Translations under genes and position numbers: made by a program
NCBI GenBank assembly: GCA_937911395.1
Contig: CALDSI010000153.1
Coordinates: 1 to 33,941, forward strand
Source: an uncultured Labrenzia sp.
GTDB taxonomy: Bacteria > Pseudomonadota > Alphaproteobacteria > Rhizobiales > Stappiaceae
Direction of reading: 5' to 3'
DNA: 33,941 nt
The notes under the pieces: model-generated
Database searches by the model: none
Seen by the model: only the letters and a program-made list of their open reading frames with translations
What the model was told of the DNA's origin: nothing
Part shown: piece by piece, positions 8,404 through 27,054 of the stretch
Position numbering within the stretch: position 1 is the first letter of the stretch
How the letters are laid out: each line of letters opens with the position of its first letter

Positions 8404-8414
8404 AAGCTGCTAAG

Positions 8415-9749: not shown

Positions 9750-9816
9750 TGCACTCCCCTGCGCTTCTCACCAAGTTTCATGATTCGAACCTAACGGCAA
9801 AATACCGACGTTGCGG

Positions 9817-9845: not shown

Positions 9846-9880
9846 ACTCAATTCGTTAGGAACCCCTTGCGGGATCGGTC

Positions 9881-10372
9881 CTAAAAGACGCCCAATCGGC
9901 GGTTTCGAAGCTTTTGTATTCGAACAGCAAGAGTGGTCAGATAGATGACAAACTCGTTTTTCTTTTCTTGTTCGAGTTCGATCGAGTCCTGCCACTGGGC
10001 AGATTCAATGTCCCGGAATGCAGCGACAACCCCTATGTAGCGGGCTTCGCTGGAGATACTGCGGTTGTAGTCGACCGTCTGTCCCGGTGTCAGCTCGTAT
10101 TCCGCACTGCCAACCAGGTCACCGCCCAACAATTTCTTGTCGTTGTCCGCGAAGTCAAAAAAGCTGCCGTTTTGAAATGCCGTCAGCTCTTTCAACTCGT
10201 AAACCCGGACCACAACCGGTGCCGGATCTCCATTTTCGTTGGGGTTTACGTTGGCATCGGCCTGCAGCTCGATCTTGATTGGTGTCGGTTTGGCGACACG
10301 CGAACACCCGGCAGAAATGGCAATGGGCGCGGCCAGAAGTCCGATGCACGCTGATCGTCGGGTCAGGCTCAT
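9881..10372 (-). CDS. tssJ: T6SS outer-membrane lipoprotein TssJ
   Basis: 163 residues. A signal sequence with RR at 5-6 leads to the lipobox ISAGC, giving a lipidated Cys23. The mature part has the TssJ transthyretin-like pattern PVVVRVYELK, then FDFADN and an EYELTPGQ block, ending with a hydrophobic strand FVIYLTTLAVRI. TssJ sits under the outer membrane and holds the periplasmic end of TssM. Its ATG overlaps the tagH stop by 4 bp (ATGA). The start and the lipobox distance fit a type II signal peptide. The double Arg alone does not make it a Tat substrate. Confidence 0.88.
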   Translation of the reverse strand: MSLTRRSACIGLLAAPIAISAGCSRVAKPTPIKIELQADANVNPNENGDPAPVVVRVYELKELTAFQNGSFFDFADNDKKLLGGDLVGSAEYELTPGQTVDYNRSISSEARYIGVVAAFRDIESAQWQDSIELEQEKKNEFVIYLTTLAVRIQKLRNRRLGVF

Positions 10373-12294: not shown

Positions 12295-13400
12295 GACACC
12301 ATCAGACCGTTGGATTGTTTTTCGGCAAGTCCCGTTCCGGCCATACGACCGCTAATATCCGGCGTAGCATGTTCCAGCTCACCGGTATAGTCTGGTCCGC
12401 TCCCCAAAGGCAGGCCCGTCAACTGAACAGGATTCTCCAGTTGGCTGTCTTCCTCGGCATCGAGCCACAGCGAAACACCCAGCCGAATATCGCCGATTTT
12501 TCCGGCCGTCACCGTGTCCTCCTTGAAGACGAACTGCAGATCCCAATCGAGTGGGTCCCGCATGACCATAGCCAAGAGTTCGGCAATTTCAGGGTGCCGC
12601 TCTCCTCCGGGCATGAATGGTTTGAGTTTTTCATAGGACGCTGGGCCCATCCGGACAGTGAACTTGCCGAGGTCGTCTTCAACTTCTTCGCCAAGCACCA
12701 TGTCTCCACCAAGAAGGGTGTTTCGAACGCCAAGCGAGATCTGGCTGTCTTCACCCATCACTACATGACGGTTCACATACTCTATGATTTCGCACGGCAC
12801 CTTGAAGAAGCTCGACAAGACCGATGCAACAGCCTCGGCGGAGTTCGAGTACAGCGACATCAAACCAACATGCGGCAGCAGGGCCGATCTTGCGACGGAT
12901 CCGATTTCCGCCCGGTCCTCGATCGGAAATCCGCACAAAGCCAGGAAGCATTTGGACGTTGCATCAAGCCCATGATCTTCAAACCGGATGTAGTGCCGGG
13001 AGCGGCGCCAAATCTGGTACAAAAGGATCGTCAGACGGTGATTGAACAGATCCAAAAGATCTTCAAGAGAAGATGGGTTTTCGTCGCTCTCGATGATCCT
13101 TTCCGTGACGTTCGGCGGCAGCGGCGATGCCGGACCATAAAGGCCCAGAAAATTCACCCGGATATCAAATTTGTCGCGCGCCTCGTCATAGGAGATCTCG
13201 GAGACATCACTGGCTCCAAAACTCAACGAGCGGGTGGCACGGAACTGGATCGGTTCATCTTTCGGCGCGTGGCCTGGACCCATCTTGTTGACGTCGGCAT
13301 GCATCAGGCCGATGAGGTAGACGAGCTGAAAGAATTGGCTGTGCGCAAGGTGCCCGGCAAGAGCGTTGTGTTTTTCCGTTGCCTCGACAACTTCCGTCAT
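12291..13400 (-). CDS. tssG: T6SS baseplate protein TssG (ImpH)
   Basis: 369 residues. SQFFQLVYLIGLM (21-33), then IQFRATRSLSFGAS, then NFLGLYGPASPLPPNVTE are the ordered TssG blocks, with the GLYGPxSPLP motif diagnostic. The family forms the TssF2-TssG heart of the wedge complex of the baseplate. The gene overlaps tssF (13397-13400) and tagH (12291-12294) by 4 bp each, so translation is probably coupled and stoichiometry fixed. A large plus-strand frame opposite it is a shadow. Nothing unusual is seen. Confidence 0.93.
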   Translation of the reverse strand: MTEVVEATEKHNALAGHLAHSQFFQLVYLIGLMHADVNKMGPGHAPKDEPIQFRATRSLSFGASDVSEISYDEARDKFDIRVNFLGLYGPASPLPPNVTERIIESDENPSSLEDLLDLFNHRLTILLYQIWRRSRHYIRFEDHGLDATSKCFLALCGFPIEDRAEIGSVARSALLPHVGLMSLYSNSAEAVASVLSSFFKVPCEIIEYVNRHVVMGEDSQISLGVRNTLLGGDMVLGEEVEDDLGKFTVRMGPASYEKLKPFMPGGERHPEIAELLAMVMRDPLDWDLQFVFKEDTVTAGKIGDIRLGVSLWLDAEEDSQLENPVQLTGLPLGSGPDYTGELEHATPDISGRMAGTGLAEKQSNGLMVS

Positions 13401-15145
13401 AGCTGCGCCGCGCTCCCTTCCTTCGGATCCCAGCTCAAGAGCGTGTTGCTGTCGGTCCCGATGATCGAGAGGCGATGCAGACTGTTTATGCTGGCGTAGG
13501 ATTTCAAAAAGCGGTCCAAAATACAGCCGAAAAGGTACATTTCCGCCTCTCCGCCCATTTCACTCTCGGCGAGCCGAAGCACAAGTTCATAGGCGCGGAC
13601 GGGACGCCCATTGCGGAAGATATCGACGCTGCGCCGTTCGAAACTCTTGAAGCTTTGAAGCAAGAGATCCCGCTGAAGCGCGGCCTGCCGGTCCACATTC
13701 GCCCGGAAATCATAGGCCCCGATCACTGTGCGCAACGCTTCGACGTCGATCAGCGATGCATAGTTGCGGGAGAGGTTGGCAATCAGCGTCCACAAGATCC
13801 GGTCATCTAGCGGCGGTGGAACCTCGCCCAAAATCCGGGTGATATTTGTGAACACCAGTTTGGCCGGTGTCTCCGATGTTGGCTGGTTGACCGACCCAAT
13901 GCCGAACTTGCTGGCGTGCTCCCCATTGGAGCAAAGCAGATTTAGAGAGATTGTTTCGGTCAACGGTTCTCCGGCTTTGTTGAGCCGGGTGACGAACGAA
14001 ATGTAGTGGTCAATTCCACTTCCGAGAACCGACGGTTTGATGGTCGCACGGTAGTAGAGCTTGTCCGGATCCGCCCCGGACGTATCGTGCGAGAAGGACT
14101 CAAACGCCTGGTAATCAATTCGCTTGCTGCTGCCTTGCACCCAACCGGTCACGGACAGCACGTCATGGACGCTGCGCAGCTCGCGGCCGCCAAGTGGCCG
14201 CACCGGGTACTCACTGCGATCATGCGACACCAGAAGGGCCTGGCCTTCGGCCTCAAACAGATTGACCGCGGGCGTGGTGTTCAACTGGATCTGGTGCGGC
14301 ATCACCCGGCTGAGGTTGGAAAAACCCTGATTGAAATGAAACACCAGTTTGAAGCTGTCCGCGGTTACACGGGCGTATTTCTCAAGGCCGCGGATGCGGA
14401 CATACATGAATTTTTCAGGGCAGGAGAAGTACTCCTGCATGATCCGGAACCCGTCAAATGAACCTTCCGGATATGGTAGACTCGCTTCGTCACGTTCAAA
14501 CCCGACCGGCTCCAGAACCACGTCCGCGGTGATCGGGTCCTGTCCCTTTGGCAACAGCTGAACCGACCTCAATCGCTTCATCAGATAAAGGTAAAGCTGT
14601 TGCGCCGTGTTGGTCTCGCCTTGCCCGCCGAGGTAAAGGGTCAGCGGTGCAGCCGCCAATGCAGCGAGGCCTGCGCCAGCCGTTTTCGTAAAGGACAACT
14701 CGAGAGACGCACTGTCCTTGCGGTTGTCCAAGTTGGTATCGCTGATCTCCAGCGGCAGAACGTTGAGGTCCAGAGTCGTGCGAAACGGCACCGCTTCGCC
14801 GTTCATGGAAGCGGTCTTGACCGACGTCCCCTTCGGAACGCGAATGGCCAATTCAGAAACATCCGGTGCGTGCCGGAATTTCAAAGTCGTCATCGGCGGG
14901 ACAGGCCGCAGGTAATGCGGCCAGATCAGCTTGAGCAGCGAATGCGCCACCTCCGGCATTTCAGCATCCAGCCGCTGGCGCAGCCGTCCGACAAGAAACG
15001 CAAAGCCTTCCATGAGCCGTTCGACATCGGGGTCTGTCGGGTCATCGGCAAGGTACTTGGACAGACGCGGGTTTGCCTTGGCAAACTCGGCTCCGAGTTC
15101 CTTGAGATAGCTGAGTTCATCCCTGTAGTAGGAATTGACCGACAT
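13397..15145 (-). CDS. tssF: T6SS baseplate protein TssF (ImpG/VasA)
   Basis: 582 residues, normal for TssF. The start YYRDELSYLKELGAEFAKAN (6-25) followed by DPDVERLMEGFAFL is the family signature. The further WPHYLRPVPPM stretch is also typical. TssF builds the baseplate wedge with TssG, TssE and TssK. It follows tssE after 22 bp and overlaps tssG by 4 bp. The ATG at 15145 is the only sensible start, since the signature begins at residue 6. Confidence 0.94.
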   Translation of the reverse strand: MSVNSYYRDELSYLKELGAEFAKANPRLSKYLADDPTDPDVERLMEGFAFLVGRLRQRLDAEMPEVAHSLLKLIWPHYLRPVPPMTTLKFRHAPDVSELAIRVPKGTSVKTASMNGEAVPFRTTLDLNVLPLEISDTNLDNRKDSASLELSFTKTAGAGLAALAAAPLTLYLGGQGETNTAQQLYLYLMKRLRSVQLLPKGQDPITADVVLEPVGFERDEASLPYPEGSFDGFRIMQEYFSCPEKFMYVRIRGLEKYARVTADSFKLVFHFNQGFSNLSRVMPHQIQLNTTPAVNLFEAEGQALLVSHDRSEYPVRPLGGRELRSVHDVLSVTGWVQGSSKRIDYQAFESFSHDTSGADPDKLYYRATIKPSVLGSGIDHYISFVTRLNKAGEPLTETISLNLLCSNGEHASKFGIGSVNQPTSETPAKLVFTNITRILGEVPPPLDDRILWTLIANLSRNYASLIDVEALRTVIGAYDFRANVDRQAALQRDLLLQSFKSFERRSVDIFRNGRPVRAYELVLRLAESEMGGEAEMYLFGCILDRFLKSYASINSLHRLSIIGTDSNTLLSWDPKEGSAAQL

Positions 15146-15167
15146 CCAGCACGTATCCTTTTACGGC

Positions 15168-15581
15168 TTAAGCAGTGAGGCGCACCTTGCCCGAGCTGTC
15201 CAGCACAGAATCAAAACGCACGCGAACCTGCCGCGTACCATATTTCAAGTCTGCCTCAACGTTGAACACAAACTCCAGCGGACGGTTCGGATCCTCAATT
15301 GTCCGGACCACCGGATTGCTCAGTCGAGGTTCGAATTTGATGATTTGCTGCTCAATATCCCGGCACAGCTCTGAAGCTGTATCCTTGTGGCTCTGGTTGA
15401 CAGCGTTGAAATCCGCCAGCCCGTAGTCGGGACGCGTTTCACAGCAGCCTGCCATTGAGTTCAACAGGATCCGCAAGTCGGCGAGAATACTGTCCATCAG
15501 CGCCGCCTCATGCTGATCCAGCGACTTGAACTCGTCTTTTAGTACATCGCCTTCAAGACGCTGAAAAAGGGATACCGCCAC
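15168..15581 (-). CDS. tssE: T6SS baseplate protein TssE (gp25-like)
   Basis: 137 residues, the usual size. SLFQRLEG (4-11) and DSILADLRILLNSMAG form the N-terminal helix region. NPVVRTIEDPNRPLEFVFNV, followed by a short strand end, is the gp25-like core, which nucleates sheath assembly on the baseplate. The gene lies 81 bp after tssC, a gap that holds a strong hairpin, and 22 bp before tssF. Confidence 0.9.
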   Translation of the reverse strand: MAVSLFQRLEGDVLKDEFKSLDQHEAALMDSILADLRILLNSMAGCCETRPDYGLADFNAVNQSHKDTASELCRDIEQQIIKFEPRLSNPVVRTIEDPNRPLEFVFNVEADLKYGTRQVRVRFDSVLDSSGKVRLTA

Positions 15582-15603
15582 AACAGAGGTCCTCTTGAAG
15601 CAA

Positions 15604-15633
15604 CACAGGGCACCAATCGTTTGGCGCCCTGTG
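15604..15633 (-). terminator. Hairpin in tssC-tssE gap, attenuator or RNA stabiliser
   Basis: CACAGGGC (15604-15611) pairs perfectly with GCCCTGTG (15626-15633). After one mismatch, CCAA pairs with TTGG around a TCGT loop. The structure sits between the sheath gene tssC and the baseplate gene tssE. No run of T follows in the direction of transcription, so it is more likely a stabilising or partial-attenuation structure than a full terminator. Confidence 0.6.
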
Positions 15634-15662
15634 AAAGGTCATTCGTCAAGACACTGACCGAC

Positions 15663-17150
15663 TTAAGCCTTGTCGAGCTTGCCTTTCAAGGACAGTGTGA
15701 AGTCTGCCCCCATGTACTTGAAGTGCGGCTGTACCGCCATCGACACGCTGTACCAGCCTGGTTCGCCCTCAACATCCGATACGGTGATCGACGCCTTGCG
15801 AAGCGGACGGCGCGAACGCACGTCTGCGGACGGATTGTCTTGGTCAGATACGTACTGGCGGATCCAGTTGTTCAGCTCGGACTGCAGTTCGTTGCGGTCT
15901 TTCCAGCTGCCGATGTTCTCCCGCTGCAAAACCTTGATGTAATGCGCCAAGCGGTTGATGATCATCATATATGGCAACTGTGTGCCGAGCTTGTAGTTCA
16001 GCTCCGCATCCTTGGCTTCCGGATTGTTGCCGAAGAACTTCGGCTTTTGAACCGAGTTTGCCGAGAAGAACGCAGCGTTGTCGGACCCTTTGCGCATTGT
16101 CAGGGAAATAAAGCCCTGCTCGGCAAGTTCGTATTCCTTACGATCGGAAACCAGAACTTCTGTCGGGATCTTGCTCTGCAGCTGCCCCATGGCCTCAAAG
16201 GTGTGGACCGGCAGATCCTCGACCGCCCCCCCTGACTGAGGGCCGATGATGTTCGGGCACCAGCGGAATTTGGCAAAGCTGTCGGTCAGCTTGGTCGCCA
16301 TTGCAAACGCTGCGTTGCCCCAGAGGTAATTTTCGCTCTGGGAGCCAGACTCTTCTTCGTAGTTGAATGCCTTTACCGGTGTGGTCTCAGGCCCATACGG
16401 GGTACGAAGCATGAAGCGCGGCATGGCCAGCGCAAAATAGCGGGAATCCTCCGACTCGCGGAAAGAGTTCCATTTCGCGTATTTCGGCCCCTCAAAAATG
16501 GATTCCATGTCCTTGAGGTTCGGGATCTCCTCAAAGGTATCAACACCGAACATGGCCGGCGCAGCTGCAGCGATAAACGGAGCATGCGACATGGACCCAA
16601 CGCTGGCGCAGTACTGAGCCAGTTTGATATCCTGTGAGCCGGGGCCGAAATCGTAGTTTGTCACGACCGCGCCAACCGGCTGACCACCGAACTGACCATA
16701 TTCTGCTGTGTAAATGTGCTTGTAAAGGCCGGACTTCACGACTTCCGGGCTGTCTTCGAAATCTTCCAGAAGCTCGTCTTTGGAGACGCTCATCATTTCG
16801 ATTTTGATGTTCTGGCGGAAATCTGTCCGGTCCGCGACAAACTTCAGACTGCGCCAAGCGGACTCCAGCGTCTTGAAGTCTTCATTGTGGATGATCTGAT
16901 CGACCTGGTCCGACAGCTTCTTGTCGATCTCGGTGATCATCATGTCGACGGCAGCGCCAGAGACCTGGCTTTGGCCGTCTGTCGGCTTCAGAAGTTCGGA
17001 AATGAATGCAGCAACGCCCTTTTTGGCGACGTCATAACCATCGTCGCTCGGCGCGAGTTTGGTTTCCTGCAAAATCTGGTCAAGCAACGAGGCGTCGAGT
17101 TCCTCGGTTTGCGCGCCGGCGCCCTGTTGCTGGTTTTCGGTGTCAGCCAT
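15663..17150 (-). CDS. tssC: T6SS sheath large subunit TssC
   Basis: 495 residues from ATG 17150; a GTG two codons upstream is also open but less likely. The family blocks are all present: WRSLKFVADRTDF, MMSVSKDELLEDFEDS, YDFGPGSQDIKLAQYCA, AHAPF-type SHAPFIAAAAPAMFG, FRESEDSRYFALAMPRFML, FSANSVQKPKFFG and the C-terminal HFKYMGADFTLSLKGKL. TssB/TssC heterodimers form the contractile sheath in the cytoplasm, which ClpV takes apart after firing. The N-terminal part is acidic and Gln-rich. It follows tssB after 80 bp, a gap that holds a small GC-rich hairpin (17196-17215). This is the standard sheath gene, in contrast to the divergent relative at the left edge. Confidence 0.96.
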   Translation of the reverse strand: MADTENQQQGAGAQTEELDASLLDQILQETKLAPSDDGYDVAKKGVAAFISELLKPTDGQSQVSGAAVDMMITEIDKKLSDQVDQIIHNEDFKTLESAWRSLKFVADRTDFRQNIKIEMMSVSKDELLEDFEDSPEVVKSGLYKHIYTAEYGQFGGQPVGAVVTNYDFGPGSQDIKLAQYCASVGSMSHAPFIAAAAPAMFGVDTFEEIPNLKDMESIFEGPKYAKWNSFRESEDSRYFALAMPRFMLRTPYGPETTPVKAFNYEEESGSQSENYLWGNAAFAMATKLTDSFAKFRWCPNIIGPQSGGAVEDLPVHTFEAMGQLQSKIPTEVLVSDRKEYELAEQGFISLTMRKGSDNAAFFSANSVQKPKFFGNNPEAKDAELNYKLGTQLPYMMIINRLAHYIKVLQRENIGSWKDRNELQSELNNWIRQYVSDQDNPSADVRSRRPLRKASITVSDVEGEPGWYSVSMAVQPHFKYMGADFTLSLKGKLDKA

Positions 17151-17195
17151 GTTCACGGTCTCTGATCTTGCTGTGGTCCGGGTAAGATGAAATCA

Positions 17196-17215
17196 GCGGG
17201 CGCCGGTTGCGCCGC
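17196..17215 (-). other. Small GC-rich hairpin in tssB-tssC gap
   Basis: GCGGGCGC (17196-17203) pairs with GCGCCGC (17209-17215) with one bulged G and a five-base loop. It lies between the two sheath genes. No T tract follows, so I do not call a terminator. Confidence 0.35.
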
Positions 17216-17230
17216 CGATTTGAACGGCAC

Positions 17231-17749
17231 TTATTCGCCGTCGCCGGAATTGCCGGTCGTCTTGGTGAGTTCAGCCAGAAGTTTTTCTCGGGCAGCTTCA
17301 TCGCCGAGAACGTTCTGGATTGCCTTTCGGAACGCCGGAACGTTGCCCAGCGGACCCTTCAAGGCGACAAGCGCCTCACGCAGCTCCAGAAGTTTGTTGA
17401 GTTCCGGCGTCTGACGCACAACGGATTCAGGAGAGAAATCGGCCAGGCTTTCGATCTTCAGCGAAACAGACAGCTTTTCCTGCTCTTCGCCTTCCTGCTG
17501 TTCGACAAGCTTGTTGTCTGTCGACATGTCCAGCTTCAACTCGTGGCTTTTCATCACCTCGTTGAAGTTGTCCTTGTTGATGTTGATCAGGGACCGGTCC
17601 TCGACTGGCGTGTCGTCGGGACGCATGGTGTAATCCCCGAGCATGACGAGCTTCAGCGGAAGTTCAACTTCTTCCTTAGCGTCTCCCGTTGCGGGCTTGT
17701 ACTTGATATTCACCCGCTCCTTGGGAGCGACGGAGGATTCTTTGGACAT
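17231..17749 (-). CDS. tssB: T6SS sheath small subunit TssB
   Basis: 172 residues, the normal length. VNIKYKPATGDAKEEVELPL (14-33) and KLVMLGDYTMRPDDTPVEDR (34-53) followed by ININKDNFNEVM are the TssB signatures. LLELREALVALKGPLGN and FRKAIQNVLGD are the C-terminal helices that pair with TssC. A strong ribosome site AAGGAGAAGGC sits directly before ATG 17749. A 187-bp gap separates it from tssA upstream, the largest in the operon, so a second promoter there is possible although I could not define one. Confidence 0.95.
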   Translation of the reverse strand: MSKESSVAPKERVNIKYKPATGDAKEEVELPLKLVMLGDYTMRPDDTPVEDRSLININKDNFNEVMKSHELKLDMSTDNKLVEQQEGEEQEKLSVSLKIESLADFSPESVVRQTPELNKLLELREALVALKGPLGNVPAFRKAIQNVLGDEAAREKLLAELTKTTGNSGDGE

Positions 17750-17936
17750 GCCTTCTCCTTAACGTCAGTCGAGCTTCCGATGTCACTTACGGAAATCATG
17801 TTATAAAACCGGTGTTCCCCTGTCCGGGGGCACTTTAGAACTGTTTCATGTCAAATCTGTCTAGAAGAGTCTTAAAAAAGACCTCTCAAAGACATGACTT
17901 TTTTCAAAAGGCACACAACAAAACCACTTTGCGCGG
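17750..17936. other. tssA-tssB intergenic stretch
   Basis: This 187-bp gap carries no reading frame of interest. A short CCCC-TGTCC-GGGG hairpin lies about 17816-17829. A TTGACA occurs on the minus strand near 17850, but no acceptable -10 box lies at 16-18 bases, so I leave promoter assignment open. Confidence 0.4.
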
Positions 17937-19673
17937 TCAGCGCTTGCCCGTCAACTCGGCAGCCGCGCCGAGGTCCAGTATCGATAAAGTTTCCATGACA
18001 GAGGCCTTCAAAGGCACCAAATCATTGTCAGAAATGACCTGACGGATGTTTTTGTGGTTGAGACTTCGCCATGAGAGCCGGGCCAATTCGACGACCAGGT
18101 CAGGCTCCCAAGCCGCCAGATTCGCATCTTCTGCGGTCTTTCGAAGCCGAGACAATTGAGCTACCAACGGCTGAAGAACATCGAACTGCAGGCACAATTC
18201 ACTAAGCTTCAACTGTCCACGGAACCAGTCCCGCTCCGCCCGGCAGCCGGCGCAATAGTCTTTCAAGACCGCCAATCCTTCAACAACCTTACCGGCCTGA
18301 GCCAGGCTTGCGGCTGTTGATGCGGCTCCCGTAAGCGGATCCCCTTCACCTCCTGTGCCGCCTCCGGCGGCAACGCTCTCGTTGATCCATGCTTTTGTTT
18401 CACCGCTCGCAAACGGGGTTCCATCGCTGAAGGACAGAGACAGCACATCCGGCAGGCGCTTCAAGAACCCGGCCAACTCCCCTTCTACCAAAAGACGCGC
18501 GGCATCATAGTCGCTGCCGAGCGCGCTCATAGCCTCGCAAATCATGAAGTGCGCATCGATCCAGAAGGGCGACGTCATGAATGCGCCTTCGGCTGATTGG
18601 ATCAACCCGAGATGATTTCCGGCACCCTTGAGCGCTTGCAGTTCCGCGATCCTGTTTTTCTGAGGTGGCGGCAACGTGGACTTCCCGCTGTTGGCGGGTG
18701 GCATCACGGTGATCCGGCCCCAAACAGCAAATCGGGCACACAAATACCCTCTTGGATCCTGCGGTGCGTGTTGCCGGCTGCTGGACGCGACCTTTCCGGC
18801 GGCATTAAACAGGGACGTAAATGCTGCATCCGAGTCGCCATCAACAGCAACCTCCGGCACCGCAATTGGTGCAGCGCTCGGGGTTGGCGAGGCTGTTTGC
18901 GGCGCGGGCGCGGCAGCCGGTGGCGGTGCAGAAGCTGTGGCAACAGGCTCAGCGCCTGCTGGTTCGGTTGCCTGAGCGCTCCCCGAAGCTGCCTCCCCTG
19001 CCGGGCTCGCAATAACCTCGCCTCCAGCGTCCTTGGCTTCTTCCGCGGCTTGGGCCGCCGCTTCTGCCTCGGCTTTCTTACGCGCTTCTTCCTCAAGCAC
19101 CGAGCTTATGTTTTTTGCGATCGGGCGGAGCGCACGGAGCAGCGGCCCGAGAGCCGCTTGGGATTTGGTGAACTTCTGTTCGAGAGCGGTATCAAGTTCA
19201 AGCAGGTAGTCATGCGCCTGAAGCGCAGCCATGCCCTGTTCGCCCTCTGGCGTCTTTCCCTCGACAAGTGACCCAAGTTTTTCTGCAAACCAGTCGAAAG
19301 CCCCCGCCCGGCCACGTTCGCGGCGCACAGGCGGTGTCATGTCTTCCCAATGGTCCTTGGACATATCTTCGAGGATCTTGACGCCAATCGCGAGACCCTT
19401 GAAATCTTCCTCCAGAAAAAGACCGTAAGCGAGCCGGGTCGCCAGAACGAGATCTTTCGAGTTGTCCTTCAAGACATCGACGGTCTTCTCGTTCAGCATC
19501 TTCCAGTTGACGGCAGACGGCCCATCGATCTCCATTTTCCGGAATTCGGCTTCAAGCTCTTCGAATTCGGGACTGTCGCGGAACTCTTCCTGCCCGTCCG
19601 CATTCGCCAGAGGGACCTTGCCAACCTCTGCCCGCGGATCGGACAACTCAGGAATTACAATCTCTTCAGCCAT
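17937..19673 (-). CDS. tssA: T6SS cap/priming protein TssA (ImpA)
   Basis: 578 residues. The N-terminal ImpA_N domain (about 25-140) shows VNWKMLNEKTVDVLKDNSKD followed by LATRLAYGLFLEEDFKGLA and HWEDMTPPVRRERGRAGAFDW. A Pro/Ala/Glu-rich linker (about 205-280) leads to a C-terminal helical domain of the VasJ type, ending LAAWEPDLVVELARLSWRSL. TssA primes and coordinates assembly of tail tube and sheath. It is the first gene of the minus-strand operon, with AGGGA eight bases before ATG 19673, and is divergent from the STAS gene at 19893. The promoter for the whole T6SS operon should therefore lie in 19674-19892. Confidence 0.92.
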   Translation of the reverse strand: MAEEIVIPELSDPRAEVGKVPLANADGQEEFRDSPEFEELEAEFRKMEIDGPSAVNWKMLNEKTVDVLKDNSKDLVLATRLAYGLFLEEDFKGLAIGVKILEDMSKDHWEDMTPPVRRERGRAGAFDWFAEKLGSLVEGKTPEGEQGMAALQAHDYLLELDTALEQKFTKSQAALGPLLRALRPIAKNISSVLEEEARKKAEAEAAAQAAEEAKDAGGEVIASPAGEAASGSAQATEPAGAEPVATASAPPPAAAPAPQTASPTPSAAPIAVPEVAVDGDSDAAFTSLFNAAGKVASSSRQHAPQDPRGYLCARFAVWGRITVMPPANSGKSTLPPPQKNRIAELQALKGAGNHLGLIQSAEGAFMTSPFWIDAHFMICEAMSALGSDYDAARLLVEGELAGFLKRLPDVLSLSFSDGTPFASGETKAWINESVAAGGGTGGEGDPLTGAASTAASLAQAGKVVEGLAVLKDYCAGCRAERDWFRGQLKLSELCLQFDVLQPLVAQLSRLRKTAEDANLAAWEPDLVVELARLSWRSLNHKNIRQVISDNDLVPLKASVMETLSILDLGAAAELTGKR

Positions 19674-19892
19674 TGGAGTATTCCCTTGTCACGGCCCGCA
19701 GCATCATGGTCTTCCGGCATCCCGCTTCGTCACAACCAGATCACCGGTCCAGGCTCGGACCATATACCGCCACGTCATTGACAGGAAACACCTGTTGCGT
19801 TCTTCATTTCATAAGAATTTCATGCTTCAAGGGAAATCCACGCACTGGCGAGTTTCAGCCCCCTAATCAATCCTGTGGAAGGTATGGTCCAA
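19674..19892. promoter_or_regulatory. Divergent tssA / STAS promoter region with inverted repeat
   Basis: The 219-bp divergent region should hold the promoters of both the T6SS operon and the signalling module. Visible elements are TTGACA at 19778-19783, overlapped by an inverted repeat ACAGG-AAACA-CCTGT (19781-19795), and two ATTTCAT direct repeats (19806-19812 and 19817-19823) spaced 11 bp, one helical turn. A convincing -10 box at 16-18 bp is lacking, so the promoter itself is unproven. Confidence 0.4.
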
Positions 19893-20249
19893 ATGGCGGA
19901 TGCGGCGCATCTCACGATCAATGACGAAACGGTGGACGGGATTCGGATCATTTGCCCCAAAGGCAAACTGGAGACCCTATCGGCAAAAGATTTTGAAGCG
20001 CATCTCAAGTCAGCCGCCCAGGAGAGCGATTCCAGCTTGCTGATCGATATGAGCGGCGTAGATTATGTGACCAGTTTTGGTCTGCGGTCCTTGTTGATCA
20101 TCACCAAACAGATCGCTCCAGCAGGACGCAAACTGATCCTCTTCGGCGTCAATCCGTCGGTCCATGAGGTCCTGAAGATCTCCGGCTTCCTCAAGATCCT
20201 CAGCGTGGTTGAGGGGCGCGATGATGCTCTGGCAGAGATCCGGGGCTAG
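19893..20249 (+). CDS. STAS-domain anti-sigma-factor antagonist
   Basis: 118 residues from ATG 19893, chosen because GGAAGG lies about ten bases before it; an ATG at 19884 and a GTG at 19875 are in frame but badly spaced. The protein is a single STAS domain of the SpoIIAA/RsbV kind, with GKLETLSAKDFEAHL and the strand LLIDMSGVDYVTSFGLRSLL, in which the Ser of TSFG is the expected phosphorylation site. In partner switching the unphosphorylated form binds the HATPase protein and frees that protein's own target. The HATPase gene follows 43 bp later and the cognate-type phosphatase is convergent with it, so the three form a full switch. Its output target is unknown; its place next to tssA makes T6SS control a possibility only. 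Confidence 0.88.
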   Translation: MADAAHLTINDETVDGIRIICPKGKLETLSAKDFEAHLKSAAQESDSSLLIDMSGVDYVTSFGLRSLLIITKQIAPAGRKLILFGVNPSVHEVLKISGFLKILSVVEGRDDALAEIRG

Positions 20250-20292
20250 CTGGCTTTATGCGCGCTCAGCGCCCTAGAAGGAGACCGGGTGG

Positions 20293-20736
20293 ATGACATC
20301 GGTTCTCGGGACTTTGGAAGTTGCAAACGAATTAGACGAGCTCTCCAGGATCTACACCTTTCTGGACGACCTTGCTGCACGCCACGGTCTCGATGACCAT
20401 ACCCGCCGTCATCTGACTTTGATCGTAGAAGAGCTTTTCTCCAACACCGTGTCCTACGGCTATCCAGAGGCCGTGGCTGACACCATCAAAACCGAACTCA
20501 CCAAAGATGGTGATAGGCTCATCTTGACCCTGGAAGATCACGCAACCGCTTTCGACACCGGGACTGCCCCTGTCCTCGATATGACCGAGACATCTGCCGA
20601 GAACATGTCAGTTGGTGGACTGGGGCTCTTTCTGGTCCATCAGGTATCTGAAGAGGTGTCGCACTCCCGGAAAGACGGCACCAATACAACGCGCGTCGTC
20701 TTGCGGTTGAGCTCTAACGGATCCGATCAGAACTGA
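20293..20736 (+). CDS. RsbW-like anti-sigma / Ser kinase (HATPase)
   Basis: 147 residues, GHKL ATPase fold. The N-box EELFSNTVSYGYP (about 47-59) keeps Glu and Asn. The G1 region is EDHATAFD, less regular than the usual D-x-G-x-P-F-D. The G2 box GGLGLFLVHQVSEEVSH is complete. Such proteins phosphorylate a STAS antagonist and sequester a sigma factor or another target. AAGGAG lies nine bases before ATG 20293. The 3' end overlaps the end of the convergent phosphatase gene by 10 bp. No sigma factor gene is in the window, so the sequestered partner is unknown. Confidence 0.87.
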   Translation: MTSVLGTLEVANELDELSRIYTFLDDLAARHGLDDHTRRHLTLIVEELFSNTVSYGYPEAVADTIKTELTKDGDRLILTLEDHATAFDTGTAPVLDMTETSAENMSVGGLGLFLVHQVSEEVSHSRKDGTNTTRVVLRLSSNGSDQN

Positions 20737-21665
20737 AACTCGATCATTGAATAGTCATCCGGCAACTCGGATTGACCAGACTTTTTCTGAACCCACTCCA
20801 GAATATGTGCAGGTATGGAGCCGTTTGCGGCAAGCGCCGCGTTGGCCAGACCTTCAAGGCTTAATACATTGCCTTCAAGGTCATCCACCTCATAGGTGCC
20901 GTCACTCAAGACCAGCAAGCGATCTCCTGATCTTACCAACACGTCGGACTGATCGAACGTCATATCTTCAATGGCGCCGATCACCATGCCTTCGCTCGTC
21001 CCAATGAGCGAAAACGCGCCCTCGTCCTTGGCTGCTGCTGCTGGCAACAGAACGGCTGCCGGATGCCCCCCGGACGCATAAGACAGTTTGCCGGTCGACC
21101 TCTGAAAAACGCCGTACCAGATGGTGAAGAACATGTTGTTCTGCCGTTCCATCGGAAAGGCGTTGTTCAACTTGAAAAGCACATCGGAGGGGATCCGGAA
21201 ATCTGTTTCCGGCAACGCGCAAGAGCGCAACACGTTGATAATCGAGACAGAGAGCAGGGCTGCACCAACACCGTGTCCGCAGACATCGATCAGATATATG
21301 GCAAAATGATCGCTATCGAGGTCATGATAGCCGAAGGAGTCGCCGCCAAGTTCCGTTGACGGAACCAAAAGCCAGTCTGCTTTCGGGCCTTCCGACCTCG
21401 GTTCCGGCAGGATCGACAACACATACCGGCCTGCGTCGGCCAACTCGGCCTCAAGCCGGCGCTGCGTGTCCAGAAGCAGCTGATTGTTCTCGGCAAGCTG
21501 ATCTTCCACGGCCTCGCCGTGTTCGATGGTCGCTTCATAAAGAAGCTGCAGATCCGCATGCTCGGCTTTCAACTCTGTCAGCTCAGCGCGCAGGGTATCC
21601 AATTCATCTTTCATAGATGCGCTGTACCCGCCGGTTTGAGAATCAGATGAAAACGAATCCGTCAT
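20727..21665 (-). CDS. SpoIIE/RsbU-type PP2C phosphatase with coiled coil
   Basis: 312 residues from ATG 21665, preferred because GGAAACGGAAA precedes it; an ATG 63 bp upstream is also open. The first 90 residues are a heptad-like coiled coil (LDTLRAELTELKAEHADLQL and following). The catalytic domain has GGDSFGYH, IDVCGHGVGAALLS, GGHPAA, LVLSDGTYEV and the final PDDYSMIEF, so all metal-binding aspartates appear present. This class dephosphorylates STAS antagonists in partner switching. No sensor or receiver domain is fused, so the input probably comes through the coiled coil or a partner. It is convergent with the HATPase gene. Confidence 0.88.
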   Translation of the reverse strand: MTDSFSSDSQTGGYSASMKDELDTLRAELTELKAEHADLQLLYEATIEHGEAVEDQLAENNQLLLDTQRRLEAELADAGRYVLSILPEPRSEGPKADWLLVPSTELGGDSFGYHDLDSDHFAIYLIDVCGHGVGAALLSVSIINVLRSCALPETDFRIPSDVLFKLNNAFPMERQNNMFFTIWYGVFQRSTGKLSYASGGHPAAVLLPAAAAKDEGAFSLIGTSEGMVIGAIEDMTFDQSDVLVRSGDRLLVLSDGTYEVDDLEGNVLSLEGLANAALAANGSIPAHILEWVQKKSGQSELPDDYSMIEFQF

Positions 21666-22051
21666 TTTCCGTTTCCAATAACAGTCAGAGTTTTCCGCCG
21701 CGCTCCTCGCAGCCGTTCCGCTAGTCATTTAACGGCGTTTGTTGGTTTTGGAAATACGCTGCCTTCGAGCAGCGAAAAATCAACATTCCCCAGATGCTTG
21801 CGGATAGATCAGCTCCGTATCTTGTCACCTATCAGAATAACTGCCAAAAGCCGTGATAATTCATACTGGTTGACACTCAATGTTCAAACAGTTGAACTAG
21901 GTATGGGGCTTATATTTACCATTCTGGTTGGATCTAGCTTAACGATTTTGACGTCATACTTCCTGCCGCGGTGATAGGGAGCCGCAGTCATCTGTGTTCG
22001 GAAACTAAAACTGAGCGCATTTTTCGGCGTCATTAATGGAGTTTGGGCGAC
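21666..22051. other. Intergenic region between divergent signalling genes
   Basis: About 390 bp without a gene, more AT-rich than its neighbours. It holds TTGACA at 21870-21875 and, just after it, a perfect inverted repeat GTTCAA-ACAG-TTGAAC (21882-21897). This is the place for the promoters of both the phosphatase and the downstream plus-strand run; no good -10 box is clear. Confidence 0.45.
21882..21897. promoter_or_regulatory. Perfect inverted repeat GTTCAA-N4-TTGAAC
   Basis: A 6+4+6 perfect dyad seven bases after a TTGACA hexamer, within the intergenic region upstream of the SiaB-like gene. Its size fits a dimeric regulator. No regulator can be named from the sequence. Confidence 0.4.
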
Positions 22052-22567
22052 GTGTCATATTCGAACGCCAGCGGAGCGGGCGAAACGCCGATGATCGAGA
22101 TCGATCTGGATGTTCGCGATTTTTCTTCAAACTGGGCCAACTGCGATCTTGTTTCGAGCTACGTCTCCCGAATGGTTTGTCACAATCGTCTCGATTCCAT
22201 GCTGTTTGCCAATCTCTATTCCTCTGCCCTCAATGAGCTGATGGAAACAGCGTTCCACAGACACGGAAACGACGGCAAGGTCGTGTGCCGGTTCAAACGC
22301 CGTGAGAATTCGGACCGCATCGAGATCGATATGCCCGGCAGCGAAGATATCGCGCGCTTTTACGATGACGCGGTCGCCTTGACCAAGCGTCCAGACAAGG
22401 ACGCCATCTATCTGGATCGCCTCTTCTCAGCAGAGAACCCTGATAGATCCCTCGGTCTTTTGGAGCTGAGCGTCGATTATGGGGCGGAGTGCAACCTGAC
22501 CCGTGACCAATCAAACAACCGCATTTGCCTGACGGCCGATCTTGTTTTCGAGGATAATGCATCGTGA
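22052..22567 (+). CDS. SiaB/slr1658-like protein with degenerate N-box
   Basis: 171 residues from GTG 22052, with GGAG ten bases before it; a TTG at 22043 is in frame but lies too close to the ribosome site. The protein is a paralog of the one at 26139: it shares the NEL-x-E helix, the acidic strand, the long helix and an LGLLEL turn near the end. The family resembles the SiaB / slr1658 group of HATPase-fold regulators, recalled rather than searched. Where the paralog has NEILENA, this protein has NELMETA, so the N-box Asn that binds metal-ATP is a Thr. The GSGLG turn is also reduced to RSLG. It may bind its STAS partner without kinase activity. Its stop overlaps the GTG of the methyltransferase gene (GTGA). 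Confidence 0.7.
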   Translation: MSYSNASGAGETPMIEIDLDVRDFSSNWANCDLVSSYVSRMVCHNRLDSMLFANLYSSALNELMETAFHRHGNDGKVVCRFKRRENSDRIEIDMPGSEDIARFYDDAVALTKRPDKDAIYLDRLFSAENPDRSLGLLELSVDYGAECNLTRDQSNNRICLTADLVFEDNAS

Positions 22568-23742
22568 CTTCCCCAGCGACTGGCCACGCATTCGATTGGC
22601 GTTTCAATGAAAACGATCAGGAATTCTCCCTGCAGGGCAGCTTGCGGCCACAATCCGCCGATGAGCTCAATGGCTGCATGGAGGCTCTCGATTCTGCGAC
22701 GTCCACAGTCAAAGGCCGACTCTATCTGAACGTCCGGCGCCTCGTGCGTATGAACAACGTTGCCTTTCAGGCGATTGCCCGGCACCTGGTCGACACGTGC
22801 GTCAATCGCCCGGACCTGAACATCCAGGTGACGACGTCGAGCTGTGTTGGATGGTCAACACGCAAATTCCAGGCTTTGGAAAGCGCAAATCAGAACATCA
22901 CCGTCAGTGAGTACGACAGCGACTTTTATCCTGGGCAGACCTTCCTGGAAGAAGGTGGTTTCATTCCGATCTTGCGGACACAAACCAAGCTGACCTGGCA
23001 CCACGAGCGCGAAATCCTCGGCCGTCATGGACTTAAGCCTGGCATGCAGATGGCGGACATCTGTTGTGGAATTGGCGATTTCGCAGTTTTGGCGCAAAAG
23101 GAATACGAGCTCGGCCGGCTCGTTGCACTCGATCACTCAAAATCAAGCCTTGATTATGCTCGCAAGGTTGCCGCCGAATTTGGCGTAAAGGGCATTGAGT
23201 ATGTTTATGGCGATGCCTCTGAAATGCTTCTTGAAAGCAACCAATTCGATTTCGTCACTTGCCGCCACGCACTACAGGTTTTTGATCATCCGGAAGAGAT
23301 CCTGAAAGAACTCTACCGGATCTGCAAACCGGGCGGCCGGGTCTACATCACAAACGAGAAAAACTCGCACTGCCTCGGCGAACCGCGCTCTGAAACCATT
23401 CAGTGGACTTATAACGAGGTCGCCAAGCTCTGGGACCACTTCGATATGGATATCGAACTCGGCCCCAAGAGCCGGCGCTATCTGATCGACGGCGGGTTTG
23501 AAGACATCAAGATGGAAAGCTTCATGGTCACCAACCTTGACGGCAATCCACAAGACTTCGCAGACATCATCCAATCCTGGGAAAACGTTTATGCTGGCCA
23601 AATGGCCGTTGAGCGTGGTGACAGTCCGGAACAGATTGCCCTTTTCCGGCAAGGTTTCCAGGATCACATTTTTGCTGCCCTGCACCCCAAAGGCTACGCT
23701 GGTTGGCCAATCTGGGTTGCCTCTGGACGGAAGCCTCTATGA
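22564..23742 (+). CDS. STAS-like domain fused to SAM methyltransferase
   Basis: 392 residues from GTG 22564, overlapping the upstream stop by 4 bp. Residues 10-120 look like a STAS domain: the strand GRLYLNVRRL then VRMNNVAFQAIARHL matches EIVLDLTGLEFLNSSGINLL of the free STAS protein at 26716. The phospho-acceptor Ser of NSSG is here NNVA, so the site seems lost. Residues 140-392 are a class I SAM-dependent methyltransferase: motif I ADICCGIGDF (164-173), acidic Asp190 in LVALDHS, YGDASEM (215-221), FDFVTCRHALQVF (228-240) and KPGGRVYITNE. The substrate is unknown; the C-terminal part is unlike the small-molecule enzymes I can name. The fusion ties a methyl transfer output to a partner-switch scaffold. 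Confidence 0.8.
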   Translation: MTSPATGHAFDWRFNENDQEFSLQGSLRPQSADELNGCMEALDSATSTVKGRLYLNVRRLVRMNNVAFQAIARHLVDTCVNRPDLNIQVTTSSCVGWSTRKFQALESANQNITVSEYDSDFYPGQTFLEEGGFIPILRTQTKLTWHHEREILGRHGLKPGMQMADICCGIGDFAVLAQKEYELGRLVALDHSKSSLDYARKVAAEFGVKGIEYVYGDASEMLLESNQFDFVTCRHALQVFDHPEEILKELYRICKPGGRVYITNEKNSHCLGEPRSETIQWTYNEVAKLWDHFDMDIELGPKSRRYLIDGGFEDIKMESFMVTNLDGNPQDFADIIQSWENVYAGQMAVERGDSPEQIALFRQGFQDHIFAALHPKGYAGWPIWVASGRKPL

Positions 23743-26135
23743 CACAGACCCAGTCTCCCGCGACCGCGAACAAGGCCGATCAGGAAGAAGAGATCGGCCG
23801 TTTTTCCCGGCACAGTTTTCGCGCCAAGTTCCTGCTTGTGGTCGGGGCGGCCGTGTTGTTCGACATCATGCTGGCCGGCGGTGTGGCCATCTGGAACGTG
23901 CAACGGCTTTCCAGAGACGCAACCGCAACTGTGAGCCAGGGTTTGACCGAAGCCACGCAGGAATACCTCAATACCTATATCGACACGACAGCGCTTCGCA
24001 CGAACCTCCTGCTCGATCAGACATACTCCGAGGTTGAGACCCTCGGCAGCTCGCTGCAGGCCTTGATCGATCATCCGGAAACGGAAATCCGGATTGGCGA
24101 AGCCGTGGAGAGTGACCCGGAACTGGGCGATCAAGACATCACCTTTGATCCGCAAGGCGGGTGGGCTCAGAACCTTGCTGGTCCGTCTGTTGTCAGCATC
24201 TGGGGCTATTTGCTTGATGATGACGGCAACCTCCTGCCCAGCGCCAGAGAGGAAGTCATCGACAGCGCGGCCTTCAACCTGGTGGCGCCTGCCCTGATGT
24301 CATCGGGCTCACAGAAACTGCAGATGTACTATGTCGGCCCCAAAGACACGCCGATCAAGCGGACGACGCCCTATACCACTCAGGCGCAAACCTTTGATCG
24401 GCTGTATCCGGGCCACAACGAAGAGAACTTTTGGGATTTCTTCTTTCCCGGCGTTTATGAGGGATGGCAGAACTGGATCAGCGATCCCACTTCCCGTCCG
24501 GTCGACCGAAACATTGTTGCAACAGAACCTTACATCGACGCGATCACCGGCGCTCTAATTGTCAGCTTTTTCGAACCGCTGTGGACACAGGACCGGTCCG
24601 ACGTCGCCGGGATGGCGGCTGTTGATGTCACGCTCGACCAGTTCGGCGAATTGGTTGAGAACGTGCAGATTGCTGACACGGGTTTTGGCTTTCTGACAAG
24701 CTCCGCCGGCAATGTCATTGCCGTGAGTGAAGTTGGCGCAGAAAAGCTCGGCCTCATCTCAGTCGATGCCACGGGTCAGGGCGTAACCGGGATCAACCGC
24801 TTCTTGAATCAGAGCCGGTATCCCGCGATCTCGAACCTTCTGTTGCCGGAAGATGCCAATACGGTAATCAAAACCCTTGAAATTGATGAAGGCAATGGGC
24901 CGGAAAACTTTATCGTTGTTTTGAAGCGACTGGATCCGGTGAACCTGTGGAACGGCTCCACAATTGTCTCCGAAAGCCTGACCCTCGGCTTCCTCGTTTC
25001 TGAAGGGGAAATGTACGAAACGCTCGGCGAGGTGCAGGAGGAAATATCCGACGCCACCCGCAGCATTGTTCAATGGCAGATCGCGGCCCTGCTGATCAGC
25101 TTGGTAATCGTGTTCATCGCCGTTTATGCGATTTCTGGCCGGATTACCGCTGGCCTAAGCGCCCTTGCAGACGCCGCCCGTGCCCTTCAAAACAAGGACT
25201 ATTCCGTCCGGGTGAAAATCCCGAGCAAGGATGAGGTCGGCGCTGTGGGCACGGCCTTCAACCGGATGGCTGAGGAAATCAGTTATCATACGGAAAACCT
25301 TGAAAAACTGGTCGAAGAGCGCACCGGCAAACTGGAAACGGCGAACAAGGAAATCGTCGCGCTCAACAAGCGTCTCCAGAACGAAAACCTGCGTCTTGGC
25401 GCTGAACTCGATGTCGCGAAACGCATTCAGGAGATGGTGCTGCCGCGGCGCAGTGAGCTGGAAGGCATCGCCCAAATCGAAATCGCTGCCTACATGGAGC
25501 CGGCGGATGAAGTCGGCGGCGATTACTATGACGTTCTCCATGACGGCGGCCGGGTGAAAGTTGGCATCGGCGACGTGACCGGACACGGGCTGGAAAGTGG
25601 CGGCCTGATGCTCATGGTGCAGTCAGTTGCCCGGGCCTTGCAGGAATAGGGCGACAACGACCCAATTGCGTTCCTCGAAGTGCTCAACCGTGCACTTTAC
25701 AAGAACATCGCACGGACCAACTCCGACAAGCACATGACCCTCGCCTTCGTTGATTACGAGGATGGCAAGGTCACGCTCTCCGGACAGCATGAGGAAGTGC
25801 TGATTATCCGGGCGAATGGCGATGTCGAACGGATCGATACGGTCGAACTCGGTTTCCCGGTTGGCCTGGAAGCGGACATTGCACCATTTGTGCAAACTGA
25901 AGTCCTGAATTTCGGTCCGGATGATGTTCTTCTGCTGCACACGGACGGTGTGACAGAGGCGGAAAACCCTGACGGCGTTCTTTACGGCTTCGACAGGATG
26001 TGCGCCTGTGCCAAAGCCAATGCCGGCAAACCAGCCAAAGCCATTATTGAGGCGATACTGGCAGAAGTTAAAGCACACATTGACACACAAAAAATGTTTG
26101 ATGACATTACCCTTGTGGTGATGAAGCACAGGTAG
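23739..26135 (+). pseudogene. SiaA-like HAMP-PP2C phosphatase with in-frame TAG
   Basis: The full frame is 798 codons with a TAG at codon 637 (25647-25649). ATG 23739 overlaps the methyltransferase stop (ATGA). Two membrane helices (about 29-53 and 446-466) enclose a large periplasmic sensor domain, followed by a HAMP domain (467-520), a coiled coil (515-560) and a SpoIIE-type PP2C domain. Catalytic parts before the TAG are GGDYYD (593-598) and GDVTGHG (611-617). After it come GQHEE (682-686), TDG (735-737) and FDDIT (787-791). The same frame continues with DPIAFLEVLNRALYKNI, a well-conserved stretch of the family, so the TAG interrupts a once intact gene. The 636-residue product would lack half of the active site. 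The layout matches Pseudomonas SiaA, whose phosphatase acts on the STAS-like SiaC. Whether it is nonsense, read-through or error is open. Confidence 0.85.
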
Positions 26136-26138
26136 GCT

Positions 26139-26684
26139 ATGACAGTGACATTCGGACACGCCGAGCTGACGAATGGGCCGTCAGCAACCACGCTCCACAT
26201 CACCCTCGCCGCAGAACCGCTGGAGCTGAGCTGGCAACACTGCGGAACAACCTCCGATTTTCTTGGCGATTATTTTGCAAAATGCTGTGCAAAGGGGGTC
26301 GATCAGGTCGACGCCCGGCACAGCATCGGCTACTTGCTGAATGAAATATTGGAGAATGCAGTGAAGTTCCGCCACGATGGCAACATCGAGATCAGCTGCT
26401 CACTGGACGGAAATCATTTCGAATCCGAGATTTCCAATGTGATTGATCCGGCCACGGCGGAGAAGTTTCAGGAGCTCTTGACGGAAATCCTGGCACGAGA
26501 TCCGGGCGAACTTCTTCTGGAACGCATTGAAGCCAACGCGACCGATCTGGACTCCTCCGGGTCTGGACTTGGGCTTTTGACGCTAATGAGCGATTATGAT
26601 GCAAAACTCGGCTGGCGCTTCACACCGGATGCCAGTAATGGTTCGGTCAACTTGAAAACTGTAGCTGCGCTGACATTCTCCTGA
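26139..26684 (+). CDS. SiaB/slr1658-like HATPase-fold regulator
   Basis: 181 residues, starting 3 bp after the phosphatase stop. The helix LLNEILENAVKFRHDG (about 66-81) is an N-box with Glu and Asn intact. DLDSSGSGLGLLTLMSDYDA toward the end resembles the glycine-rich ATP lid. The family fits the SiaB / slr1658 group, in which SiaB phosphorylates the STAS-like partner SiaC; this is from recall. A free STAS gene lies 31 bp downstream, so kinase, substrate and phosphatase are adjacent. It is the apparently active paralog of the degenerate protein at 22052. I found no membrane segment. Confidence 0.75.
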   Translation: MTVTFGHAELTNGPSATTLHITLAAEPLELSWQHCGTTSDFLGDYFAKCCAKGVDQVDARHSIGYLLNEILENAVKFRHDGNIEISCSLDGNHFESEISNVIDPATAEKFQELLTEILARDPGELLLERIEANATDLDSSGSGLGLLTLMSDYDAKLGWRFTPDASNGSVNLKTVAALTFS

Positions 26685-26715: not shown

Positions 26716-27054
26716 ATGGAAATCAGCACCAACGACTACCGTGTCTGGGCAGAAGGGTCGAAGATCCATTATGAAGGCACGATGCGTCTGTCTGGTACGG
26801 AGGCGTATGCGCCAATCCTGGAACTCATGAACAATGTGCTCGATTCCAAACCGGAAGAAATCGTACTTGACCTGACCGGTCTGGAATTCCTCAACAGTTC
26901 CGGCATCAACCTCCTTGCAAAGTTCACCATCGAGATCCGCAAGCAACCGGAAATCGGTGTGCGTGTTCTCGGCTCCAAAGCCATTCCGTGGCAGTCCAAG
27001 TCGTTGCGTAACCTTCAGCGTCTGCACAAGTCTCTCGAGCTGCAAATCAACTGA
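26716..27054 (+). CDS. STAS-domain regulator, slr1659/SiaC-like
   Basis: 112 residues, one STAS-type domain. GTMRLSGTEAYAPILELM, then EIVLDLTGLEFLNSSGINLL carries the likely phospho-acceptor Ser in NSSG. GVRVLGSKAIPWQSKSLRNL continues as a conserved helix-strand segment. GAGGGA precedes ATG 26716 by nine bases. It follows the SiaB-like kinase and is the expected substrate of that kinase and of the phosphatase upstream. In Pseudomonas the comparable protein SiaC activates a diguanylate cyclase; no cyclase is in this window, so the output here must be sought elsewhere. Confidence 0.82.
   Translation: MEISTNDYRVWAEGSKIHYEGTMRLSGTEAYAPILELMNNVLDSKPEEIVLDLTGLEFLNSSGINLLAKFTIEIRKQPEIGVRVLGSKAIPWQSKSLRNLQRLHKSLELQIN

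Follow-up and report, generated by a model that had tools for sequence, protein, structure and literature searches.

A degenerate GHKL/STAS pair with a fused methyltransferase, embedded in a putative partner switch of Labrenzia and its relatives

Background

In partner switches of the SpoIIAB/SpoIIAA and RsbW/RsbV type, a GHKL kinase binds a STAS protein and a PP2C phosphatase resets the system. To our knowledge, the output of the known switches is a sigma factor, a cyclase or some other regulator, and they require phosphorylation of the STAS protein; we know of no methyltransferase that has been tied to one of them. DivL, a GHKL pseudokinase, is a precedent for signalling through the GHKL fold without kinase activity. 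As far as we know, neither pseudokinases of the DivL type nor the STAS proteins of the stressosome combine the loss on the kinase side with the loss on the STAS side, or carry a methyltransferase. Here we describe a five-gene cassette in a stretch of 33,941 nucleotides from an uncultured Labrenzia sp. (contig CALDSI010000153.1; "the window" below), in which a putative pseudokinase and a STAS-methyltransferase fusion lie beside a canonical kinase/STAS pair.

The cassette most resembles SiaABCD of Pseudomonas aeruginosa, which, according to the accessible parts of two reports (PMC7647112, PMC8457831), comprises a sensor PP2C phosphatase (SiaA), a GHKL kinase (SiaB) and a STAS-like protein (SiaC) with the phosphorylation acceptor T68. 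The phosphorylated residue sits in the peptide LLYLNTSSIK, right after an Asn (PMC7647112, accessible part). Stressosome STAS proteins are described as signalling without phosphorylation in the accessible part of another paper (PMC3944199). In cyanobacteria, recovery from iron limitation was reportedly impaired by disruption of slr1658 (Zer et al. 2018, as cited in the accessible part of PMC7555055).

A degenerate kinase/STAS pair beside a canonical one

The five genes lie on the forward strand in the order pseudokinase (22052-22567; Kdeg), STAS-methyltransferase fusion (22564-23742; FUS), SiaA-like Cache-HAMP-PP2C sensor phosphatase (23739-26135), kinase of the slr1658 type with intact motifs (26139-26684; Kcan) and STAS protein of the slr1659 type with an NSSG acceptor loop (26716-27054; STAScan). 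The window carries two kinase/STAS pairs of one kind, a canonical one downstream and a diverged one upstream, referred to here as the live and the dead pair; there is no sigma factor among the five genes. The first-pass annotation of the window, made from the letters alone, had singled out the two upstream genes, since the N-box of the first reads NELMETA against NEILENA in its downstream paralog, with Thr in place of Asn, and the acceptor loop of the second reads NNVA against NSSG in the downstream STAS protein. Both genes and both differences are as it described them, and its broader claim, that the phosphorylation chemistry had been lost on the two sides together, holds across 81 sequences, except for two fusions that have a Ser.

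These sequences come from the window and from 80 loci, the best 80 of 250 relatives retrieved by a scan of contig collections, which represent the closer part of the family. The loci were gathered with the fusion as bait; its presence in 80/80 is given by construction, and the other four genes are the informative ones. Structure-based alignments used subsets of 46 fusions and 43 pseudokinases. One pseudokinase (locus L090), cut to 126 amino acids by a contig edge, was counted in the motif columns and omitted from the pseudokinase alignment and the distance matrices.

On the kinase side, the N-box Asn is present in 81/81 live kinases and in none of the 81 first-gene proteins, where the column holds Val (49), Thr (26), Ala (3) or another residue (three). 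The Asn of the G1 box is likewise found in every live kinase and in no pseudokinase, 76 of which have a Pro. The first Gly of the G2 box is kept in 5 pseudokinases and 80 live kinases, the second in 28 and 80, respectively. On the STAS side, the acceptor column is Ser in all 81 live STAS proteins, whereas it is Asn in 79 fusions (N65 in the window) and Ser in 2. T68 of SiaC, which directly follows an Asn (PMC7647112, accessible part), supports the identification of this column as the acceptor. A private mutation or a sequencing artefact at the two motifs is ruled out by these columns. The alignments did not place the true N-box Asn or acceptor Ser elsewhere. Indeed, N61 of the pseudokinase, invariant like E62 and E65 in 43/43 aligned sequences, aligns with the invariant Asn that precedes the catalytic Glu of the paralog and not with the N-box, and S92 and S93 of the fusion, although invariant in the 46 aligned fusions, follow strand 86-92 and lie outside the acceptor loop.

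The pseudokinase matches the slr1658 superfamily model (NF047703) with 52.8 bits (E 3e-14), under the curated cut-off of 100 bits that applies to this model and to its slr1659 counterpart (NF047705), and a Pfam search with it gave no match. A profile-profile comparison (hhalign) with the downstream kinase gave E 2.7e-9 and a probability of 96. Its AlphaFold2 model is a confidently predicted GHKL fold (mean predicted local distance difference test score, pLDDT, 90.6), for which the sole four Protein Data Bank matches found by Foldseek at E<=0.001 are SpoIIAB in complex with its partners (1l0o, 1tid, 1til) and SiaB (6kko_A). Chain B of 6kko, the SiaB-SiaC complex, aligns with a template modelling (TM) score of 0.63 (E 4e-3). 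Foldseek also lists a DivL structure (4q20). We took its start to be the GTG at 22052, an alternative being the TTG at 22043. Two plasmid records annotate the pseudokinase (L119:11486-12004 and L120:11450-11965) as "ubiquinone biosynthesis methyltransferase UbiE", an annotation that the family search of the window's pseudokinase does not support; the label was perhaps carried over from the neighbouring gene.

The second gene had been supposed to be STAS-like over its residues 1-120, and the predicted structure (pLDDT 83.8) bears this out: the region is modelled as a beta-beta-alpha-beta-alpha-beta-alpha-beta STAS fold, with the acceptor column as the first residue of helix 65-81. Residues 10-108 match the slr1659 superfamily with 29.5 bits (E 7e-7), under the cut-off, and the profile-profile comparison with the downstream STAS protein gave E 7e-7 and a probability of 92. 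The remainder (about 145-392) is a methyltransferase of the class I S-adenosylmethionine (SAM) type; its portion from about 145 to 264 is closest to the Methyltransf_11 and UbiE/MenG models, residues 165-262 matching Methyltransf_11 at E 4e-19. The SAM motif ADICCGIGDF is identical in 81/81 sequences at eight of its ten columns and in 78 and 80 at the other two, and D190, G216 and D217 are present in 81/81. As judged from these columns, the SAM-binding motifs of the methyltransferase are intact. Of all parts of the cassette the methyltransferase varies least, with a mean distance of 0.23 against 0.35-0.83 for the others.

The pseudokinase has not been left to drift. In six close pairs its ratio of nonsynonymous to synonymous substitution rates (dN/dS) is 0.034-0.080, one of these pairs (L039/L043) having a saturated dS (2.7), and the other cassette genes range from 0.02 to 0.20. 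Between the window and two near relatives the ratio is 0.027 and 0.064. Such values indicate that the gene evolves under purifying selection and, together with the confident predicted fold, led us to reject gene decay.

A live switch around the dead pair

The downstream kinase and STAS protein score 184.1 bits against the slr1658 superfamily and 144.6 bits against the slr1659 superfamily, both above the cut-off. They fall below the cut-offs of the Pfam families of SiaB and SiaC type, with 16.8 bits against DUF6272 (cut-off 26.6) and 12.6 bits against SiaC (PF09345; cut-off 24.5). A search of Protein Data Bank sequences with the live-kinase profile gave nothing better than E 0.14; with the live-STAS profile it gave eight weak matches, six of them STAS proteins and the best RsfB (8ih8, E 7e-4). 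The downstream pair is probably catalytically active, as kinase and as acceptor.

The part of the third gene before an in-frame stop matches the SiaA model with 108 bits (E 5e-31; the cut-off of this model is 700), and the SpoIIE domain is present in both pieces of 23739-26135. The first-pass annotation placed a PP2C sensor phosphatase directly after the fusion. The gene does follow there, but in the window its PP2C domain is cut by a TAG at 25647-25649. In all 80 relatives, near-identical ones included, the gene is a single open frame of over 700 residues. The stop in the window is either an error of the assembly or a true inactivation. The DVTGHG motif is conserved in 78/78 clustered relatives. 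By their motifs, the downstream kinase, the downstream STAS protein and the PP2C phosphatase have what partner switching would require, while the first gene and the fusion lack it.

The five genes occur in the same order and on one strand in 80/80 loci. The first-pass annotation had suggested a check for co-occurrence of pseudokinase and fusion; in these loci the pseudokinase always accompanies the fusion. The two genes share a 4-base GTGA overlap in the window; stop/start overlaps of 4 bases join pseudokinase and fusion in 68/80 loci and fusion and phosphatase in 76/80, in reading frames that were placed by similarity and whose starts are not proven. These overlaps point to coupled translation.

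Among genomes of the window's genus, 22/37 (its own included) have a full-length fusion, as against 1/24 other genomes sampled from the order and 4/385 of a class sample. A match to a stand-alone methyltransferase was also noticed in the class sample (L117). The loci cover Roseibium/Labrenzia, Mesorhizobium, Rhizobium, Sinorhizobium/Ensifer, Aminobacter, Phyllobacterium, Devosia, Parvibaculum and others. One record with the whole cassette and a GGDEF-EAL gene (L080) is labelled Mycobacterium sp. KBS0706, an organism label that looks doubtful. The fusion is carried by 120/72,556 plasmid records, among them pSymB of Sinorhizobium meliloti 1021, where we take the locus tags to be SMb20447-SMb20452 (a literature search on these gave no match); phage records gave no match at E 1e-15.

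Linkage was also approached from the live side. A search for the slr1659 family in three overlapping samples (398 genomes of the phylum, 385 of the class and 347 of the order), in which only distinct positive genomes were counted, gave 19 genomes above the cut-off. In each of the 18 that belong to the window's class the fusion is also present, at a distance of about 4 kb. The remaining genome (L149), from another class, has the live pair only. Next to this pair are a SpoIIE-type phosphatase and a diguanylate cyclase, and the search detected neither a further slr1658 nor a further slr1659 match in that genome.

A phosphorylation-independent module carrying a methyltransferase, as the first-pass annotation had proposed, has good grounds in the loss of motifs, the predicted folds, the selection on the pseudokinase and the SAM motifs. 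What does not stand is its extension to the system as a whole: because the dead pair is embedded with a live kinase, a live STAS protein and a PP2C phosphatase in 80/80 loci, the whole cannot be called phosphorylation-independent. We regard the module as one arm of a larger live switch, and the more likely arrangement is that this switch reads or gates the dead pair.

A proposed mechanism

On balance, we consider it probable that the cassette is a five-gene partner switch in which the live pair and the sensor control the STAS-methyltransferase of the dead pair through competition. The SiaA-like sensor and the live kinase would set the phosphorylation state of the small live STAS protein. Meanwhile, the pseudokinase would hold the fusion in a complex that phosphorylation cannot break. 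Devoid of nucleotide motifs, it could hold its partner permanently, and release would then require competition; the live STAS protein is the obvious competitor because its binding should depend on its own phosphorylation. When the sensor phosphatase is active, dephosphorylated live STAS would compete for the pseudokinase, or bind to the complex, and the methyltransferase would be freed or repositioned, its activity or choice of target following the sensor signal. Where a GGDEF-EAL gene lies just upstream, as in 51/80 loci, c-di-GMP metabolism may be a further target of the live STAS protein, by analogy with SiaC and SiaD. That the pseudokinase itself reads the phosphorylation of the live STAS protein by competition, and that the tethered methyltransferase it gates is the output of the switch, is a tentative proposal. 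The simplest account of the origin of the cassette would be that a SiaB/SiaC-like pair was duplicated, that one copy lost phosphotransfer and that its STAS protein became fused to a methyltransferase.

Several observations weigh against this scheme. The two fusions with a Ser in the acceptor column, both from Mesorhizobium genomes (L084 and L092), are accompanied by pseudokinases that still have Val in the N-box. The residue after the acceptor column is Thr in 22/81 fusions; a general shift of the acceptor by one residue was rejected, Thr being found there in only these 22. The N-box Glu is retained in 81/81 pseudokinases, perhaps for structural reasons, and they may have kept some residual ligand binding. 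Both members of the dead pair score under the curated cut-offs of their families. Against the more distant locus L035, the dN/dS of the window's pseudokinase is 0.18, about twice that of its live paralog (0.08). In a mirror-tree comparison all cassette proteins co-vary, and the pseudokinase and the fusion are not singled out: their partial correlation is 0.30, compared with 0.36 for pseudokinase and live kinase and 0.35 for fusion STAS and live kinase. Finally, the predicted structures are of single chains and not of complexes.

Alternative readings

It is also possible, if doubtful, that the main output is cyclic di-GMP (c-di-GMP), or the second PP2C phosphatase described below, controlled through the live STAS protein as in SiaABCD, with the dead pair as a minor modulator. 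A GGDEF-EAL gene lies 55-365 bases upstream of the cassette on the same strand in 51/80 loci, from Mesorhizobium, Sinorhizobium, Rhizobium, Aminobacter and Phyllobacterium (for example L119:9721-11415), and in one further locus (L111) on the opposite strand. All 51 of the upstream genes examined (51/51) have an intact EAL motif, with AGDEF in place of GGDEF. In the Roseibium loci, the window included, tblastn detected no such gene upstream. In L149 the live pair adjoins its diguanylate cyclase and phosphatase in a genome with no match to a second pair. On the other hand, 28/80 loci (L090, which has no upstream DNA, among them) showed no GGDEF-EAL gene in the neighbourhood of the cassette, whereas fusion and live STAS protein go together in 18/18 genomes of the class. 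Moreover, no other part of the cassette is as well conserved as the methyltransferase.

We regard as unlikely a feedback arm, in which the acceptor-less STAS domain permanently mimics the unphosphorylated live STAS protein and brings the methyltransferase to the live kinase or to the SiaA-like sensor, cassette proteins then being methylated in an adaptation loop similar in spirit to that of CheR in chemotaxis. Asn is no phosphomimic, and the fusion STAS domain should therefore look unphosphorylated. The overlap of the fusion and phosphatase genes in most loci would fit such an arm, as would the partial correlation of the methyltransferase with the sensor part of the SiaA-like protein (0.52), the highest of all pairs, which may nevertheless come from shared inheritance or rate. 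This reading leaves the conserved pseudokinase without a role. Furthermore, the best Foldseek match of the methyltransferase is the uncharacterised 3mgg and, although the next is the peptide-modifying LahSB, most of the other matches among the 50 listed are small-molecule enzymes (phosphoethanolamine, rebeccamycin, TleD).

Less probable still is a ligand sensor, in which the pseudokinase, its altered nucleotide pocket occupied by another small molecule, controls the methyltransferase without the live switch. Columns on the pocket side are indeed conserved anew (the Pro at the G1 position in 76/81; N61, E62 and E65 in 43/43), but there is no clue to a ligand, and such strict linkage and co-occurrence point to a connection with the live switch.

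An ordinary small-molecule methyltransferase beside decaying signalling genes, with no signalling role for the pair, is suggested by the resemblance to UbiE and to small-molecule enzymes, but is already disfavoured and very improbable, given a pseudokinase frame in 80/80 loci (one cut by a contig edge), its confident predicted fold and low dN/dS (0.034-0.080), a STAS domain fused in 80/80 loci and the live switch co-occurring in 18/18 genomes of the class.

If the competition scheme is right, a dead kinase relays the signal of a phospho-switch to methylation. A second pair devoid of phosphorylation chemistry on both sides, conserved across a broad clade and carrying an enzyme, would be an unstudied kind of signalling output, and would explain what genes labelled hypothetical or UbiE in public records do. 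As S. meliloti 1021 has the fusion on pSymB, the use of a kinase fold as a pure protein switch and the target of methylation are directly testable.

Neighbouring genes

Flanks were examined up to 8 kb, less at contig ends. In the window, a second PP2C phosphatase with the N-terminal helix motif LLYEATIEHGEAVEDQL (20727-21728, reverse strand; SpoIIE domain, E 4e-36) is a candidate partner of the cassette by its position and motif. Relatives of it lie in the flanks of 18/80 loci, and ten loci have neither a GGDEF-EAL nor such a PP2C neighbour (L090, without upstream DNA, is one of them). Adjoining this gene at 19890-20736 is a separate pair, a STAS protein with a TSFG loop and an RsbW-like protein, that has the look of a further partner switch of this region. 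Both genes have close relatives to the left of the cassette in 9/80 loci; in four further loci (L051, L052, L060 and L071) one or both have weaker matches.

A type VI secretion cluster (1421-19673, reverse strand) also lies beside the window's cassette. Pfam identifies in it a protein kinase, PP2C, TagF, TssM, TssL, TssK, FHA, TssG and TssF, and other genes of the cluster we take to be TssC, TssB and TssA. Core genes of this secretion system are present in 12 of the 18 loci with the PP2C neighbour, three of these having them at a distance and on the other side of the cassette. As these 12 are the only such loci among the 80, a fixed link to type VI secretion was rejected.

The N-terminal helix motif, about DLxLLYEATxEHGExxExQL, is common to the window's PP2C (20727-21728), L149:8322-9140 and L152:676-1758. 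In L149 it is the N-terminal helix of the diguanylate cyclase, a stalked GGDEF protein, that resembles that of the PP2C (E 6e-9); the cyclase has a second, weaker copy of it (E 3e-4). The stalk of SiaD has two SiaC-binding motifs (PMC8457831, accessible part). By analogy, and as a lead only, we suggest that STAS proteins of the slr1659 type may dock on this helix. The motif also occurs in a class III cyclase from a different part of the window's genome (L152:676-1758) and is not confined to such neighbours.

Comparison with known systems

The first-pass annotation knew of no described system of this form, and nothing of the kind has come to light: the titles and opening lines of abstracts of open-access papers, to which the search extended (subscription papers and preprints lying outside it), describe no such combination. 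The accessible part of the slr1658/slr1659 literature (PMC7555055) makes no mention of a methyltransferase. The live pair are members of these two superfamilies (NF047703/NF047705), to which the dead pair is homologous at scores below the cut-off.

The fold of the pseudokinase matches SpoIIAB (1l0o, 1tid, 1til). Unlike the SpoIIAB and RsbW switches, the cassette has one pair without nucleotide motifs and acceptor, and no sigma factor gene. The likeness to SiaABCD extends from the match of the pseudokinase model to the SiaB-SiaC structure 6kko to the gene for a c-di-GMP enzyme near the cassette in 51/80 loci. However, the kinase and STAS protein of the cassette belong to the slr1658 and slr1659 families and miss the cut-offs of DUF6272 and SiaC. 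Furthermore, SiaABCD, in the accessible descriptions, has one kinase/STAS pair, to which the cassette adds a second, dead pair with a methyltransferase on its STAS protein. Each kind of component is known; we rate the combination as new, a variant of partner switching.

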